A DNA stretch of 20,485 nucleotides, taken from a virus. Shown here piece by piece: positions 8,404 to 20,207 of the stretch. Position 1 is the stretch's first letter. Each line of letters starts with the position of its first letter. The stretch covers positions 1 through 20,485 of the IMG/VR virus record IMGVR_UViG_3300033571_006301; one strand, written 5' to 3'. The notes under the pieces are model-generated. The model ran no database searches. It was not told the origin of the DNA and was given only the letters and a program-made list of their open reading frames with translations. The translations under genes were made by a program, and so were the position numbers.

Positions 8404-8832
8404 CTAAACGCTCGAACTCTGTCGATAGGAGATCGTTAACCTCATATCGGTCACCCCATAAGGAGTCATCAGTCCTTCGTCTGAATTTATACTATCTATA
8501 CGAGCGTCTACAACTTCTAGAGATGGTGTAGAACTTTTTCCAAAGCTTATCACAATCTGTTCAATATCTAACATAAGCTGATCAAGATCTCCTTGAGGAT
8601 CTTCGCTACGCACATATGCACGAAGTGCAATCTCCATGGCATAATAACGATTATTATCACCTATATGAGTTAATGTTGATTCTTGAACATTGTATGTGAT
8701 ATATGGAAAATCGTTTATTGTATCTATCCACTTAAAACCTCGCGCTACTCCGCGTGGCGGCAGCGTTTTATAGTAGGCTCCATTTTGTAGCGCGGCGGTA
8801 AATTCATTTAACACATCAACACGTCTACCCAT
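8404..8832 (-). CDS. Putative tail-terminator / tail-completion-like protein
   Basis: The preferred start is the ATG at 8832 (MGRRVDVLNEFTAALQNG), which overlaps the Fe-S carrier stop by 8 nt; a longer frame to 8868 begins well inside that gene. The 142-aa product has an N-terminal helix, a middle FPYITYNVQESTLTHIGDNN segment, a strand MEIALRAYVRSEDPQGDLDQ and a C-terminal YGVTDMRLTISYRQ. This order resembles the small alpha/beta tail-terminator and tail-completion proteins of tailed phages, which cap the tail tube and sheath. The match is one of fold pattern as I recall it, not of a diagnostic motif. Virion-block context supports a structural role. Confidence 0.5.
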   Translation of the reverse strand: MGRRVDVLNEFTAALQNGAYYKTLPPRGVARGFKWIDTINDFPYITYNVQESTLTHIGDNNRYYAMEIALRAYVRSEDPQGDLDQLMLDIEQIVISFGKSSTPSLEVVDARIDSINSDEGLMTPYGVTDMRLTISYRQSSSV

Positions 8833-9151
8833 TACAACCTCCAACAGATACTGAACGTCCACAACCACAGCTACCGTTGGCGGAGGCGGAGTTTATCTCC
8901 CACGAGCTTCCAAAAATATCCTCTATAAAATTTAGAGAAACTTCACCAAGCAGCATCTCAGATTGCGAGTCTATAATCAACCCATAGTCACCTACTTTGA
9001 CGACGGAGTCGTCAGGTGTTGGCGTATCATAGCTCCAATCATAGGAATAGCCTGCACAACCTCCAGCACGTAGGGCGAGACGTATGTAACTTTTATTTAA
9101 TGCACATGAAATGTGCAACTTTTTTGTAGCGCTTTCAGTAAGAGTAATCAT
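8825..9151 (-). CDS. A-type iron-sulfur cluster carrier (IscA/HesB-like)
   Basis: A 108-aa A-type carrier that accepts and passes on Fe-S clusters. The opening MITLTESATKKL corresponds to the usual start of this family. The first cluster Cys is in the GGCAGYSYDW segment (about residue 32) and the paired cysteines are in NGSCGCGRSV near the C-terminus, giving the family's C...CxC arrangement; the pair is followed by an extra GGC that is not usual. IscA/HesB-type genes are well known in T4-like marine phages, where the client is uncertain. It is the first gene of the leftward block, directly beside the divergent hinge, with the downstream gene overlapping its end. Confidence 0.88.
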   Translation of the reverse strand: MITLTESATKKLHISCALNKSYIRLALRAGGCAGYSYDWSYDTPTPDDSVVKVGDYGLIIDSQSEMLLGEVSLNFIEDIFGSSWEINSASANGSCGCGRSVSVGGCNG

Positions 9152-9380
9152 AACTTTTATAAGTTTAACTCTTATTTAGTAGTAAGTCAAATTGAAATTA
9201 TTTCAAGGCTAGTTGCCCCCTGGACTTTTCGACTTTTTATAATCGAGGCCGTGAAAGGGTCCGCCCTAGGTAGGGCGGGGTGTCAAGTCCTCGAAACCGC
9301 CCTACTTATTAAAAATATTTATATTTCGAAATAAAAAAATATTTTTTTATTTTATTTTTCGACTTAATATCGAAGGCATA

Positions 9381-9449
9381 GGGTAGGGGAGGGGGGAGGG
9401 GGGTACCCCCTACCTAATGGCATACCCCCGCCCCCTACCCCTCCGGGGG
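9381..9449. repeat. G-quadruplex candidate facing a C-rich inverted repeat
   Basis: The top strand has four G-runs of 3, 4, 6 and 6 separated by loops of 2, 1 and 1 bases (9381-9403). They run directly into the palindrome GGGGGTACCCCC and then into C-runs (CCCCCGCCCCCTACCCCTCC) that mirror the G side imperfectly. The lower strand therefore also has quadruplex potential, and the whole block can fold as a long GC hairpin. This stands out sharply from the A/T-rich surroundings. Confidence 0.8.
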
Positions 9450-9505
9450 ACTTATGCACAGGGAAAAAATAATTCAATTATTTTTATTTTTTTTTCTTGA
9501 GGCGC

Positions 9506-10285: not shown

Positions 10286-10290
10286 TAAAA

Positions 10291-10338
10291 ACAACGCCTT
10301 AGGGCGGGGCTGCGGCCCCACTAACCTATTGATATTAA
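10291..10338 (+). repeat. Intergenic cassette, copy without its own promoter
   Basis: CCTTAGGG, then a hairpin GGGGC (10306-10310) / GCCCC (10315-10319), then CTAACCTATTGATATTA. This is the leftmost clear copy of the repeated boundary cassette. It lacks the T-tract plus TTGACT half; the promoter here belongs to the TTATCCACA class instead. Confidence 0.75.
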
Positions 10339-10354
10339 ACAGCTTTCTGGTTCA

Positions 10355-10665: not shown

Positions 10666-10796
10666 TGAGCAACGCAAAAAAAGCTTTCCAAGCTTATCTG
10701 GACAAAGAAGCGAAAGCGGTTGAAGCTTTCAAAGAAGAGATGAAAAAACTAGAAGAGCAATATAAGGCGATTCTAGAAAAAGAAAAGAAGGTGTGA
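10665..10796 (+). CDS. 43-aa coiled-coil protein
   Basis: Starts in a TAATG overlap with the previous gene. Nearly the whole chain is one charged helix (KKAFQAYLDKEAKAVEAFKE onward, ending EKEKKV) with heptad-like Leu/Ala/Ile spacing, so a dimeric coiled coil is likely. There is no recognised domain. It may be a partner of the 51-aa protein, given the coupling. The stop codon lies within the stem of the following hairpin. Confidence 0.65.
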   Translation: MSNAKKAFQAYLDKEAKAVEAFKEEMKKLEEQYKAILEKEKKV

Positions 10797-10811
10797 CATT
10801 TATGTCACACC
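10790..10811 (+). terminator. Perfect hairpin over the stop codon
   Basis: GGTGTGACAT / ATGTCACACC, 10 bp with a 2-nt loop, containing the TGA of the 43-aa gene. No T-run follows, so it may protect or attenuate the RNA rather than act as a classical terminator. Confidence 0.6.
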
Positions 10812-10855
10812 TGGCGCCGCTGAGAACAAAACGTGAACTAGCAAAACGTGTGCCA
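10812..10855 (+). repeat. 44-bp direct repeat, copy 2
   Basis: Matches 10355-10398 in length and most bases, including AACAAAACGTGAACTAGCAA. It follows directly on the GGTGTGACAT hairpin. Confidence 0.8.
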
Positions 10856-10883
10856 GTTTTTTGGAACGGCGAAAATAAAAATT

Positions 10884-10907
10884 AGGTGTGGCATTATAGC
10901 CACACCT
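10884..10907 (+). terminator. Sister hairpin AGGTGTGGC / GCCACACCT
   Basis: 9-bp stem with a 6-nt ATTATA loop. Compared with the hairpin at 10790-10811, one A-T stem pair is replaced by G-C on both arms (GGTGTGAC versus GGTGTGGC), a paired change that keeps the stem. Each hairpin is followed by a (C)TGGCGCCG repeat start. Confidence 0.6.
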
Positions 10908-15078: not shown

Positions 15079-15249
15079 ATGAAGAACGAACGACACTCAC
15101 GGACATATAAAGATGAGCGCAAAACGCGCAACCCGTTCGCGAGGGCCGTTCGCGAAAATAAGCTCTTTACAGAACGCGTGGTTTCTGCTAAAGTGCGTTA
15201 TGTTAGGAAGTCAAAACACAGAAAGGAACTTGACTATGGCTACGAATAA
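15079..15249 (+). CDS. ArfA-like alternative ribosome-rescue factor candidate, 56 aa
   Basis: A basic 56-aa frame that opens with the ATG 7 nt after the -10 box, so its mRNA would be leaderless or nearly so. Residues 18-51 (NPFARAVRENKLFTERVVSA, then KVRYVRKSKHRKE) line up with the core of E. coli ArfA ([20 protein letters not shown], then SYMRKGKHG): LF..RV, then a basic run, then Y.RK.KH. ArfA frees ribosomes stalled on broken mRNAs by recruiting RF2. The C-terminal part of E. coli ArfA, which is removed from the active form, is absent here. The 3' end carries the promoter of the next gene and overlaps its start by 14 nt. The similarity is from memory over a short basic region, so confidence is moderate. 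Confidence 0.5.
   Translation: MKNERHSRTYKDERKTRNPFARAVRENKLFTERVVSAKVRYVRKSKHRKELDYGYE
15166..15194 (+). promoter_or_regulatory. Internal promoter for the HTH gene
   Basis: TTTACA (15166-15171)-N17-TAAAGT (15189-15194), inside the ArfA-like frame. The bases before and over the -10 box (GTTTCTGCTAA) are identical to those of the paralogous gene's promoter at 19131-19149. Confidence 0.6.
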
Positions 15250-15571
15250 GACTGTGAACTATACCGAAGAACTCACCGCCAAGCTGCATGATCTTTATGC
15301 AGAACTCGGCAACGATGGTTTGGATAAGATTGCCGACACTATCGGCAAGCCTGTTCGTTCCGTTCGTGCCAAGCTGGTTCGTGATGGTGTTTATGTTGCA
15401 TCTGCCAAGTCTGCGGCAGCAAAGAAGGATGGTCCTTCTAAAAAGGAAATCCTTAACGAAATCCAAAAACTCGGTTTCGCTCCCGATGGTCTGGAAGGTG
15501 CGACGAAAGAAGCACTCTACCGCATCAAGAATTTGGTTCTCGATGTGAATGGTGTTCGTAACGCGAACTGA
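15236..15571 (+). CDS. HTH DNA-binding protein (paralogue 1), 111 aa
   Basis: The start at 15236 follows AGAAAGGAAC and matches the start of the paralogue. An N-terminal three-helix HTH/SANT-like domain spans residues about 8-55: YTEELTAKLHDLYAELGNDG, then LDKIADTIGKPVRSVRAKLV, then DGVYV. A Lys/Ala/Ser-rich linker follows, then a second helical domain (PSKKEILNEIQKLGFAPDGL, EGATKEALYRIKNLV) that has the look of a SAP/LEM-like helix pair. The first domain is common in T4-like phages as an unassigned DNA-binding module. Its 19185 paralogue shares both domains. Likely a small nucleoid-type or transcription-control protein; abundance is suggested by two promoters. Confidence 0.8.
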   Translation: MATNKTVNYTEELTAKLHDLYAELGNDGLDKIADTIGKPVRSVRAKLVRDGVYVASAKSAAAKKDGPSKKEILNEIQKLGFAPDGLEGATKEALYRIKNLVLDVNGVRNAN

Positions 15572-17826: not shown

Positions 17827-17856
17827 GTGACCATGAAAACAGAAGGAAAACAGACC

Positions 17857-18327
17857 ATGAAGAACATCATCATTTTTGATCTGGACATGACGGTTGTGGA
17901 CAGTCGCCACAGAACGCCTAACAAGCCTGATGGCACTCTTGATCTGCAAGGTTATTTTAACCTTCGCAATCGTGATAGCATTATGCGTGATACCTTGCTT
18001 CCTCTTGCAAAGGCCATGCGTTCTTTGTTTGAAAATAACTATATCATCATTGCGACTGCGCGAAGCGTAGATGCAGCAGATTATGAGTTTTTGGAAAAGA
18101 ACAATTTGCCCTATCACAAGTTTTTCTCTAGGGAATGGGGTTCGATGGAAAAAGATGCGAGTTTGAAGCTGCGTCAGATCAAAAAGCTCTTGAACCTAAA
18201 GCAATTCCGTGGTAAACCTTGTTTCATGTTTGACGACGCGTCTCCAGTTATTCGTGAAATGCGAAAGGCTGGTATTCGTTGCATGAACTCTCACAAGGTA
18301 AACAGGAAGATTGCAAATGCGGCTTAA
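17857..18327 (+). CDS. HAD-superfamily phosphatase, 156 aa
   Basis: Starts at 17857 after AGAAGGAAAAC; an in-frame ATG at 17833 lies at the predicted transcription start. Motif I is IIIFDLDMTVVDS (D8 nucleophile, D10), motif II IIIATARS (T/S in ATARS), motif III a Lys in the helical region after SREWG, and motif IV CFMFDDASPVI (paired Asp). It has no large cap, so the substrate may be a nucleotide, a nucleic-acid end or a small protein. The order and size resemble the 3'-phosphatase half of T4 polynucleotide kinase, which repairs cut tRNA, but the kinase half is missing. It overlaps the protease gene by 11 nt. Confidence 0.8.
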   Translation: MKNIIIFDLDMTVVDSRHRTPNKPDGTLDLQGYFNLRNRDSIMRDTLLPLAKAMRSLFENNYIIIATARSVDAADYEFLEKNNLPYHKFFSREWGSMEKDASLKLRQIKKLLNLKQFRGKPCFMFDDASPVIREMRKAGIRCMNSHKVNRKIANAA

Positions 18328-18795: not shown

Positions 18796-18899
18796 ATTTC
18801 AACTACTTAGCGCGGGGCGCGCCCGCTCGCAAGTTATTGATATTGTTGGGTTTTTTGCTTCACAAAGTTCTTGCCTTCTGCTCTGAGTTGGGCTATAAT
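18796..18899 (+). promoter_or_regulatory. Boundary cassette with promoter
   Basis: TTTCAACTACTTAG, hairpin GCGGG (18812-18816) / CCCGC (18822-18826), AAGTTATTGATATTG, TTTTTTGCTTCACAAAG, then TTGCCT (18871-18876)-N17-TATAAT (18894-18899). Confidence 0.75.
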
Positions 18900-19149: not shown

Positions 19150-19184
19150 CTAAAAGTTAAATGAGAAGCCAATAGGAGATGAAC

Positions 19185-19514
19185 ATGGCTGAAGCTGCTA
19201 AGAAGGTGAACTACACTGACGCTGACATCGCTACGCTGACCAATATGTATGGTGAGCTTGGCAATGATGGGCTTGATCGTATCGCTGAGACTCTCGGCAA
19301 GAGCGTTCGTTCGGTTCGAGCGAAGCTCGTTCGTGAAGGCCTGTATGTCACGCCTGTAAAGGGTGCGACTGCTAAGAAGGAAGGTCCGACTAAGAAGGAG
19401 CTTCTTAACGATCTGGAAAAGGTCGCGCCTTTTCCGGTTGATGGTCTGGTGGGTGCTACGAAGGAGGCTATCGCTTATTTGATTGCTTACTTCGCCCCTC
19501 GCAAGGATGCTTAA
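19185..19514 (+). CDS. HTH DNA-binding protein (paralogue 2), 109 aa
   Basis: AGGAG is 7 nt before the ATG at 19185; an earlier ATG at 19179 is too close to it. The first domain, VNYTDADIATLTNMYGELGN, then DGLDRIAETLGKSVRSVRAK, is nearly superimposable on that of the 15236 gene, and the second domain keeps KKELLNDLEK and DGLVGATKEA. Its codons are richer in GC and differ at many silent sites from the paralogue. Two diverged copies in one early region suggest hetero-oligomers or distinct target sites. The linker VKGATAKKEGP is basic and flexible. Confidence 0.8.
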   Translation: MAEAAKKVNYTDADIATLTNMYGELGNDGLDRIAETLGKSVRSVRAKLVREGLYVTPVKGATAKKEGPTKKELLNDLEKVAPFPVDGLVGATKEAIAYLIAYFAPRKDA

Positions 19515-19517
19515 TCC

Positions 19518-19556
19518 TTGACAGGTGTAGGCTCATTTGATATAATGAGCCTACAC
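19518..19556 (+). promoter_or_regulatory. Consensus promoter with the -10 box inside an 11-bp palindrome
   Basis: TTGACA (19518-19523)-N17-TATAAT (19541-19546), a perfect consensus promoter. GTGTAGGCTCA (19525-19535) and TGAGCCTACAC (19546-19556) are perfect inverted arms; the 10-nt loop holds most of the -10 box. It starts 4 nt after the HTH stop, so read-through RNA would form a hairpin here. Same architecture as 13651-13685. Confidence 0.8.
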
Positions 19557-19576: not shown

Positions 19577-19777
19577 ATGAAACGCGATTTAGGCGAAGTT
19601 ACTGGCAAATGCAAAATCTGCGAGATTAACCTTTGGGAAAAAACGGATAACAAGCCTGCAATTCTCCCGTGTGGTGTTGCGGCTTGCCCCTACGAAAAAG
19701 GTGGCGCAAAGTTTGAACGCCATGAGTTTTCGCCTATCGGTTCAGGTCTTGCACAGTTAATCGAGTCAAGCGACTAA
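19577..19777 (+). CDS. Small zinc-ribbon-like protein, 66 aa
   Basis: Starts after GTGAGGACAAC. CKIC (about residues 12-15) and CGVAAC (32-37) place four cysteines as CxxC...Cx4C, the usual ligands of a small zinc ribbon. The segment around the second pair (LPCGVAACPYEKGGAKFERH) has an extra His that could also bind metal. The rest is short and polar. It may bind DNA, RNA or a protein. It alone is driven by the palindromic consensus promoter, which suggests tight control. Confidence 0.72.
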   Translation: MKRDLGEVTGKCKICEINLWEKTDNKPAILPCGVAACPYEKGGAKFERHEFSPIGSGLAQLIESSD

Positions 19778-20016
19778 GCAACAAAGGTAAGTTACCGTTG
19801 GAGGGTAACACCGTGGTACGCGAGAGAACTGGTAGGTGGGGCGTACCACAAAACATGTATATTCACAGATGTTGCACGGGGTATCGTTAACAGACGTGTT
19901 AACTATGGGTTGACAGGGCTTTCACTCAACCCTAATACAACTCGGGCAAAAGCTGAGAACGGCAGATCACCGACTTCAAAATGTTGCCTTTATGCAACAT
20001 CTTTGAATATACATTT
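19778..20016 (+). ncRNA. Dense-hairpin, gene-free region upstream of tRNA-Lys
   Basis: No supportable gene. The predicted stems, in order: GCAACA (19778-19783) with TGTTGC (19870-19875), enclosing GTTACC/GGTAAC (19791-19809) and a 9-bp GTGGTACGC/GCGTACCAC (19813-19849); then two GTTAAC arms, GGGTTGA/TCAACCC, CTCGG/CTGAG, and ATGTTGC/GCAACAT near 19981. This density is more than ordinary spacer shows. Position next to a phage tRNA recalls GOLLD and ROOL RNAs, which sit beside tRNA genes in phages, but this region is shorter and I see no match to their sequence. Confidence 0.45.
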
Positions 20017-20092
20017 GGACCCTTAGCTCAATAGGTAGAGCAACGGACTTTTAATCCGCAGGTTGCCGGTTCGAGTCCGGCAGGGTCTACCA
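20017..20092 (+). tRNA. tRNA-Lys (UUU), CCA encoded
   Basis: A 76-nt cloverleaf. Acceptor GGACCCT / AGGGTCT (one G-U pair), D-arm GCTC/GAGC, anticodon loop CTTTTAA with anticodon TTT, T-arm GCCGG-TTCGAGT-CCGGC, discriminator A and an encoded CCA. The first anticodon-stem pair is A-C (27-43), slightly unusual. A phage copy would supply the Lys-AAA reader for the AT-rich, Lys-rich small proteins of the left arm. It follows the hairpin-rich region and precedes a boundary cassette. Confidence 0.95.
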
Positions 20093-20098
20093 AAACAC

Positions 20099-20207
20099 CA
20101 ACAAAATCAACCACTTACGGCGGGGCGTGCCCGCGACTAACTATCTGATACTACTAGCTTTTTTCCTGCACAAAGTTCTTGACTATTCGGCGGCTTTCCT
20201 CTATAGT
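20099..20207 (+). promoter_or_regulatory. Boundary cassette with promoter
   Basis: ACAAAATCAACCACTTACGG, hairpin GCGGG (20120-20124) / CCCGC (20130-20134), ACTAACTATCTGATACTACT, CTTTTTTCCTGCACAAAG, then TTGACT (20179-20184)-N17-TATAGT (20202-20207). Confidence 0.78.

Follow-up and report, generated by a model that had tools for sequence, protein, structure and literature searches.

A candidate small structured RNA immediately upstream of tRNA-Lys in a genome fragment of an uncultured bacterial virus

The analysed DNA is a 20,485-base fragment of an uncultured virus of bacteria, and this whole stretch is called the window here. Genes for the head and tail, including those for a terminase small subunit and a tail terminator, lie on its minus strand, and small genes lie on the plus strand. 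At the right end, g66 is followed by 239 bases without a listed gene and then by tRNA-Lys(UUU) (Table 1). No listed open reading frame of at least 50 aa was found within 19778–20016, and the earlier note was right in describing a gene-free stretch directly before the tRNA. Rfam matched the tRNA with 72.8 bits at 20017–20089. The putative promoter before g66 also has TG preceding its second hexamer, and the consensus scan detected neither promoter nor terminator on the plus strand between g66 and tRNA-Lys. The promoter at 19518 would probably drive g66, the RNA stretch and tRNA-Lys together.

About 1.7 kb before tRNA-Lys, positions 17848–18327 encode a protein with a HAD-type polynucleotide-kinase phosphatase domain, which is present in two copies in several relatives. 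T4 Pnkp mends tRNA-Lys after cleavage by the anticodon nuclease PrrC, and the presence of the phosphatase domain protein and tRNA-Lys in one locus is a suggestive parallel to T4 Pnkp/PrrC. Elsewhere in the window, an A-type iron-sulphur scaffold (HesB/IscA-like, Pfam Fe-S_biosyn) was observed amid structural genes at 8825–9151. A palindromic, very G-/C-rich stretch (GGGGGG runs, TACCCCC) at 9370–9450, where the structural and early gene blocks diverge, is possibly a bidirectional terminator or origin.

Table 1. Features at the right end of the window; hairpins and helix arms are those of the predicted fold.
Feature	Position	Strand	Details
Putative sigma-70-type promoter	19518–19546	+	Consensus scan: TTGACA-17-TATAAT, 12/12 matches
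g66, gene for a 66-aa Cys-containing small protein	19577–19777	+	
Hairpin A	19786–19812	+	GGT/ACC plus GTTACC/GGTAAC, loop GTTGGAG
Hairpin B	19813–19849	+	GTGGTACGC/GCGTACCAC; 19-nt purine-rich loop GAGAGAACTGGTAGGTGGG
5′ arm, 22-nt closing helix of domain C	19855–19876	+	
Inner hairpin C1	19886–19903	+	GTTAACA/TGTTAAC
Inner hairpin C2	19907–19932	+	GGGTTGA/TCAACCC, 12-nt loop with GGCTTT
Inner hairpin C3	19942–19973	+	TCGG/CCGA, GCTG/CGGC inside
3′ arm, 22-nt closing helix of domain C	19993–20014	+	
tRNA-Lys(UUU), CCA encoded	20017–20092	+	ARAGORN
Next promoter-like site	20179–20207	+	Consensus scan; bounds the proposed transcript

Codon statistics were non-coding-like in all six frames of the stretch: the best value was −0.02, and 16 genes in the window scored +0.08 to +0.39. 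Frame +0, which continues the g66 frame, runs 79 codons without a stop and had a codon score of −0.13. Among shuffled sequences, 1.8% had such an open frame by chance when that frame alone was counted, and 9% when any of the six was. The 79-codon frame gave no Pfam match and weak PHROG matches (E 0.11 and 0.17); tblastn matches were at E 1 or worse in phages and none better than E 0.07 in relatives. A coding reading of the 79 codons was rejected because the frame has neither coding bias nor a protein family. A 25-codon frame has GGAGG at 19800, GTG at 19813 and a stop at 19890, and this combination may have occurred by chance.

The 19784–20016 stretch consists of two 5′ hairpins, A and B, followed by domain C, and together with the tRNA it was predicted as a row of independent folding units. 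Its dominant element is a 22-nt inverted repeat that encloses the three-hairpin domain. The arms stand 116 nt apart and are 95% complementary (21 of 22 positions paired), and the helix stops 2 nt before the tRNA-Lys 5′ end. In the full RNA, its pairing probability was 0.999. Inside the domain, GGCTTT in the C2 loop could pair with AAAGCT at 19949–19954, and GCAACAT of the 3′ arm (19994–20000) has an alternative partner, ATGTTGC, at 19981–19987.

The perfect stems listed in the earlier note were largely recovered: GTTACC/GGTAAC (19791–19796/19804–19809) and GTGGTACGC/GCGTACCAC (19813–19821/19841–19849) are perfect, and several others are present; the main 22-nt inverted repeat was missing from that list. 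The note had also placed these two stems inside an enclosing GCAACA/TGTTGC stem. This stem exists as sequence (GCAACA at 19778, TGTTGC at 19870), but its pairing probability in the full RNA was 0.0, since TGTTGC is part of the 22-nt arm and pairs there. The stem dominated solely in partial transcripts ending at about 19877–19977.

Fold stability was compared with dinucleotide-preserving shuffles. The 19784–20016 stretch gave −85.6 kcal/mol with a z score of −7.1, and z scores for 19771–20016 and 19853–20016 were −6.3 and −7.5, respectively; in each of the three cases, 0 of 200 shuffles were as stable. By part, the 5′ hairpins together showed a z score of −3.7, with −2.1 for hairpin A and −3.8 for hairpin B alone, and the 116-nt interior of domain C alone reached only −1.6. 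These values indicate that the inverted repeat and hairpin B supply most of the signal. Among 57 tRNA leaders of 164 nt from the phage group (median −1.4), the leader discussed here had the lowest z score. By simple counting, chance would produce a 22-nt repeat with a single mismatch about 2e-5 times per window. No second inverted repeat of this quality was found within the window, and one other was seen (L085) among related loci totalling about 1 Mb, with the distant L023–L027 excluded. By these predictions, the stretch folds far beyond chance and is a candidate for a small non-coding RNA.

Two further results bear on how the stability should be read. The minus strand folded nearly as well (−81.5, z −5.7), and a palindrome at the DNA level therefore also fits. 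Comparable z scores were reached in other segments of this hairpin-rich genome, some of them at visible terminator-like hairpins (z −10.8 at 10743–10906). A low z score alone thus does not make the stretch unique, and it was rejected as proof of an RNA.

Rfam cmscan of the plus strand over 501 bases (19700–20200) with E up to 10 gave tRNA as the sole credible family. With the tRNA left out, the best matches in DNA searches of INPHARED and PLSDB had E 0.7 or worse. Exact and degenerate patterns in IMG/VR and GTDB retrieved nothing except a chance-like match (L099) without structure. The arm motif was absent from GTDB genome contigs and occurred once in IMG/VR, with a differing spacer and with neither a second arm nor structure nearby. 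Two single-sequence covariance models, R1 and R2, were run over related phage loci totalling about 1 Mb and over 50 whole records, and they found no homologue. Such models detect rather close kin only, and the collections may lack the records nearest to the window, so the absence of homologues is weak evidence. Relatives reached through exo234 (24 loci) and through a 111-aa DNA-binding protein (75 loci) likewise showed no such RNA by blastn, nhmmer or the covariance models. The one R1 match, to L048/L018 (18.5 bits), was dismissed as a homologue, as it retains just a long hairpin and is not part of a tRNA leader.

The tRNA-Lys leaders of Phosso, AS-zj, CR3 and POP17 were also rejected as homologues, since neither model matched; the two of them that were folded had z scores of −1.8 and −1.3. 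In Sinorhizobium phage Phosso, positions 1283–1516 contain two T-arm-like remnants, GGGGTTCAATTCCCC and GGGGTTCGATTCCC, before tRNA-Lys, which suggests eroded tRNA genes. No homologue turned up anywhere in these searches, and one sequence alone cannot show selection on structure. The proposal of a structured RNA or tRNA leader thereby loses comparative support by covariation but is not contradicted.

More than 30 contigs of related phages contain a g66 homologue. At the syntenic site behind g66, none of them has the RNA stretch, and another gene or the usual spacer was found instead. The piece formed by the RNA stretch and the tRNA is therefore an accessory insertion, and from this sequence comparison the two together look like an accessory cassette. 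On one side it borders the stop of g66, and on the other a type of spacer that recurs after genes in related phages. This spacer comprises a hairpin, a GGCGCCC/GCGGGGCG palindrome and then CTAAC..TTGAT, and a sigma-70 promoter often follows directly; it was seen at 18805–18860, 20104–20165 and 10290–10345 of the window and in spacers of relatives. Positions 19179–19511 and 15233–15568 of the window, as well as L004–L097, encode a conserved DNA-binding-like protein (about 105 aa, with the core VRSVRSKLVREGVYVA, GPTKKELL). Many phages of the group carry several paralogous copies of it, up to four per locus.

GOLLD RNAs are phage-encoded, highly structured and often near tRNAs, and the stretch is likewise phage-encoded and near a tRNA. 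Many GOLLD members exceed 800 nt (PMC12286853), whereas the gene-free stretch measures 239 nt. ROOL RNAs, which are also phage-encoded and often near tRNA islands, share only position with it. ROOL forms a homo-octameric RNA nanocage (PMC12286853). Neither the Rfam covariance model of GOLLD, which covers its conserved 3′ region, nor that of ROOL matched in cmscan with E up to 5 for the window and up to 10 for 19700–20200. The proposal of a smaller GOLLD or ROOL member is not supported, the element being about 230 nt long and tRNA the only credible Rfam family. A broader reading, in which the stretch is either a structured RNA of an undescribed kind or a leader processed from the tRNA, is the best available.

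The small stable RNAs annotated beside tRNA-Arg in T4, rnaC (139 nt) and rnaD (119 nt), known as species 1/2, appear nearest in kind. T4 rnaD begins 1 nt from tRNA-Arg, which demonstrates that small stable RNAs adjoining phage tRNAs do exist. The T4 RNAs lie downstream of their tRNA, whereas the stretch lies upstream of tRNA-Lys, and rnaC ends in a T-arm-like hairpin that the stretch lacks. Models R1 and R2 did not match the T4 locus (L098). The z scores of rnaC and rnaD were −4.6 and −0.8, respectively, and those of the stretch were lower (−6.3 to −7.5).

An 86-nt tRNA-Trp leader of a related phage (L012, 6289–6374; near-identical in L095/L097) is also structured, with a z score of about −3, and is possibly the same kind of element. 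Its order is gene end, GGTAAG, a 6-bp hairpin with a purine loop, a second hairpin and the tRNA. The loop of the second hairpin holds GTAGGATGAGGGG, to be compared with GTAGGTGGGG in the stretch, and the leader lacks the 160-nt domain. In a search of 601 bases, model R2 gave it 2.8 bits in register, with E 0.95. As a homologue it was rejected: the resemblance is suggestive by eye, and the score is not significant.

Our main reading, to which we give a probability of roughly 0.4, is that 19784–20016 encodes a small structured RNA of the phage, about 230 nt long, co-transcribed with tRNA-Lys and freed by RNase P. One transcript from the 19518 promoter would contain g66, the RNA and tRNA-Lys. Maturation of a tRNA 5′ end requires an RNase P cut, which here falls at 20016/20017. 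This cut would yield the tRNA 5′ end and the RNA 3′ end at once, and the 22-nt helix would then shield that 3′ end, giving a stable small phage RNA. The sequence analysis itself shows the stability of the predicted fold, the anatomy, the lack of coding character and the accessory nature of the piece. We infer the scheme, from transcription and RNase P release to the stability of the RNA and any trans-acting role, from the anatomy and from general knowledge of tRNA processing. Whether it extends to a new tRNA-linked class, in which an RNA of two hairpins and a helix-closed domain of three more is freed by the RNase P cut that makes tRNA-Lys, and an RNA-plus-tRNA cassette moves between phages, is doubtful.

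The same anatomy could serve in cis, with the stretch as a leader of tRNA-Lys whose 22-nt helix, ending at tRNA position −3, slows or gates RNase P; we regard this as unlikely. The helix is 2 nt from the cleavage site, and the early stem (19778–19783/19870–19875) is predicted to form first during transcription. The early stem could compete with the late 22-nt helix and with 19981–19987/19994–20000 as a switch. However, at 0.999 for the late helix and 0.0 for the alternatives in the full RNA, no equilibrium switch is predicted. A ribosome on the 25-codon frame could also sway the choice of stem. GGAGG with a start codon 4–9 nt on occurs at 4 places on the plus strand of the window, but the combination could be chance here. 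Among the related-phage leaders inspected, hairpins like these were seen only in the 86-nt L012 group, and to our knowledge there is no precedent for such leader control of a phage tRNA.

A foldback DNA insert is fairly unlikely as well. In that case, 19855–20014 would be a 160-bp unit with 22-bp terminal inverted repeats, originating as a non-autonomous mobile element or a template-switch product, and the RNA fold would be a by-product of its palindromes. The 21/22 repeat, the nearly equal folding of both strands, the low signal of the interior alone and the absence of the piece behind g66 in relatives are all consistent with such an insert. Against it, the unit is single-copy in the window, its arm motif was found neither in GTDB contigs nor with a partner arm in IMG/VR, inspection by eye showed no flanking duplication, none of the scanned proteins was recognised as a transposase, and hairpins A and B fall outside the repeat. 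A miniature inverted-repeat transposable element would be expected in multiple copies, or with its terminal repeats also present at other sites; the searches of the window, IMG/VR and GTDB contigs did not show this.

Neutral or decayed sequence, such as eroded tRNAs or a pseudogene folding well by chance in a hairpin-rich genome, is quite unlikely: similar z scores in other parts of the genome, the Phosso remnants and the 79-codon frame with its weak PHROG matches agree with it, but ARAGORN and a lax cmscan showed no tRNA signal apart from 20017–20092, the frame has the chance frequency and the lack of coding bias and matches described above, and the 22-nt repeat is unexpected by chance.

Sequence alone cannot separate the small-RNA, cis-leader and foldback-DNA readings, and we class the stretch as a candidate for a small, structured RNA of the phage. 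Phage tRNA clusters repeatedly host structured RNAs of unknown function, namely T4 species 1/2, GOLLD and ROOL. If the small-RNA reading is true, the stretch would add a further and much smaller RNA, joined directly to a single tRNA and easily tested. It could then tell whether such RNAs serve the tRNA, in processing or protection, or act alone.
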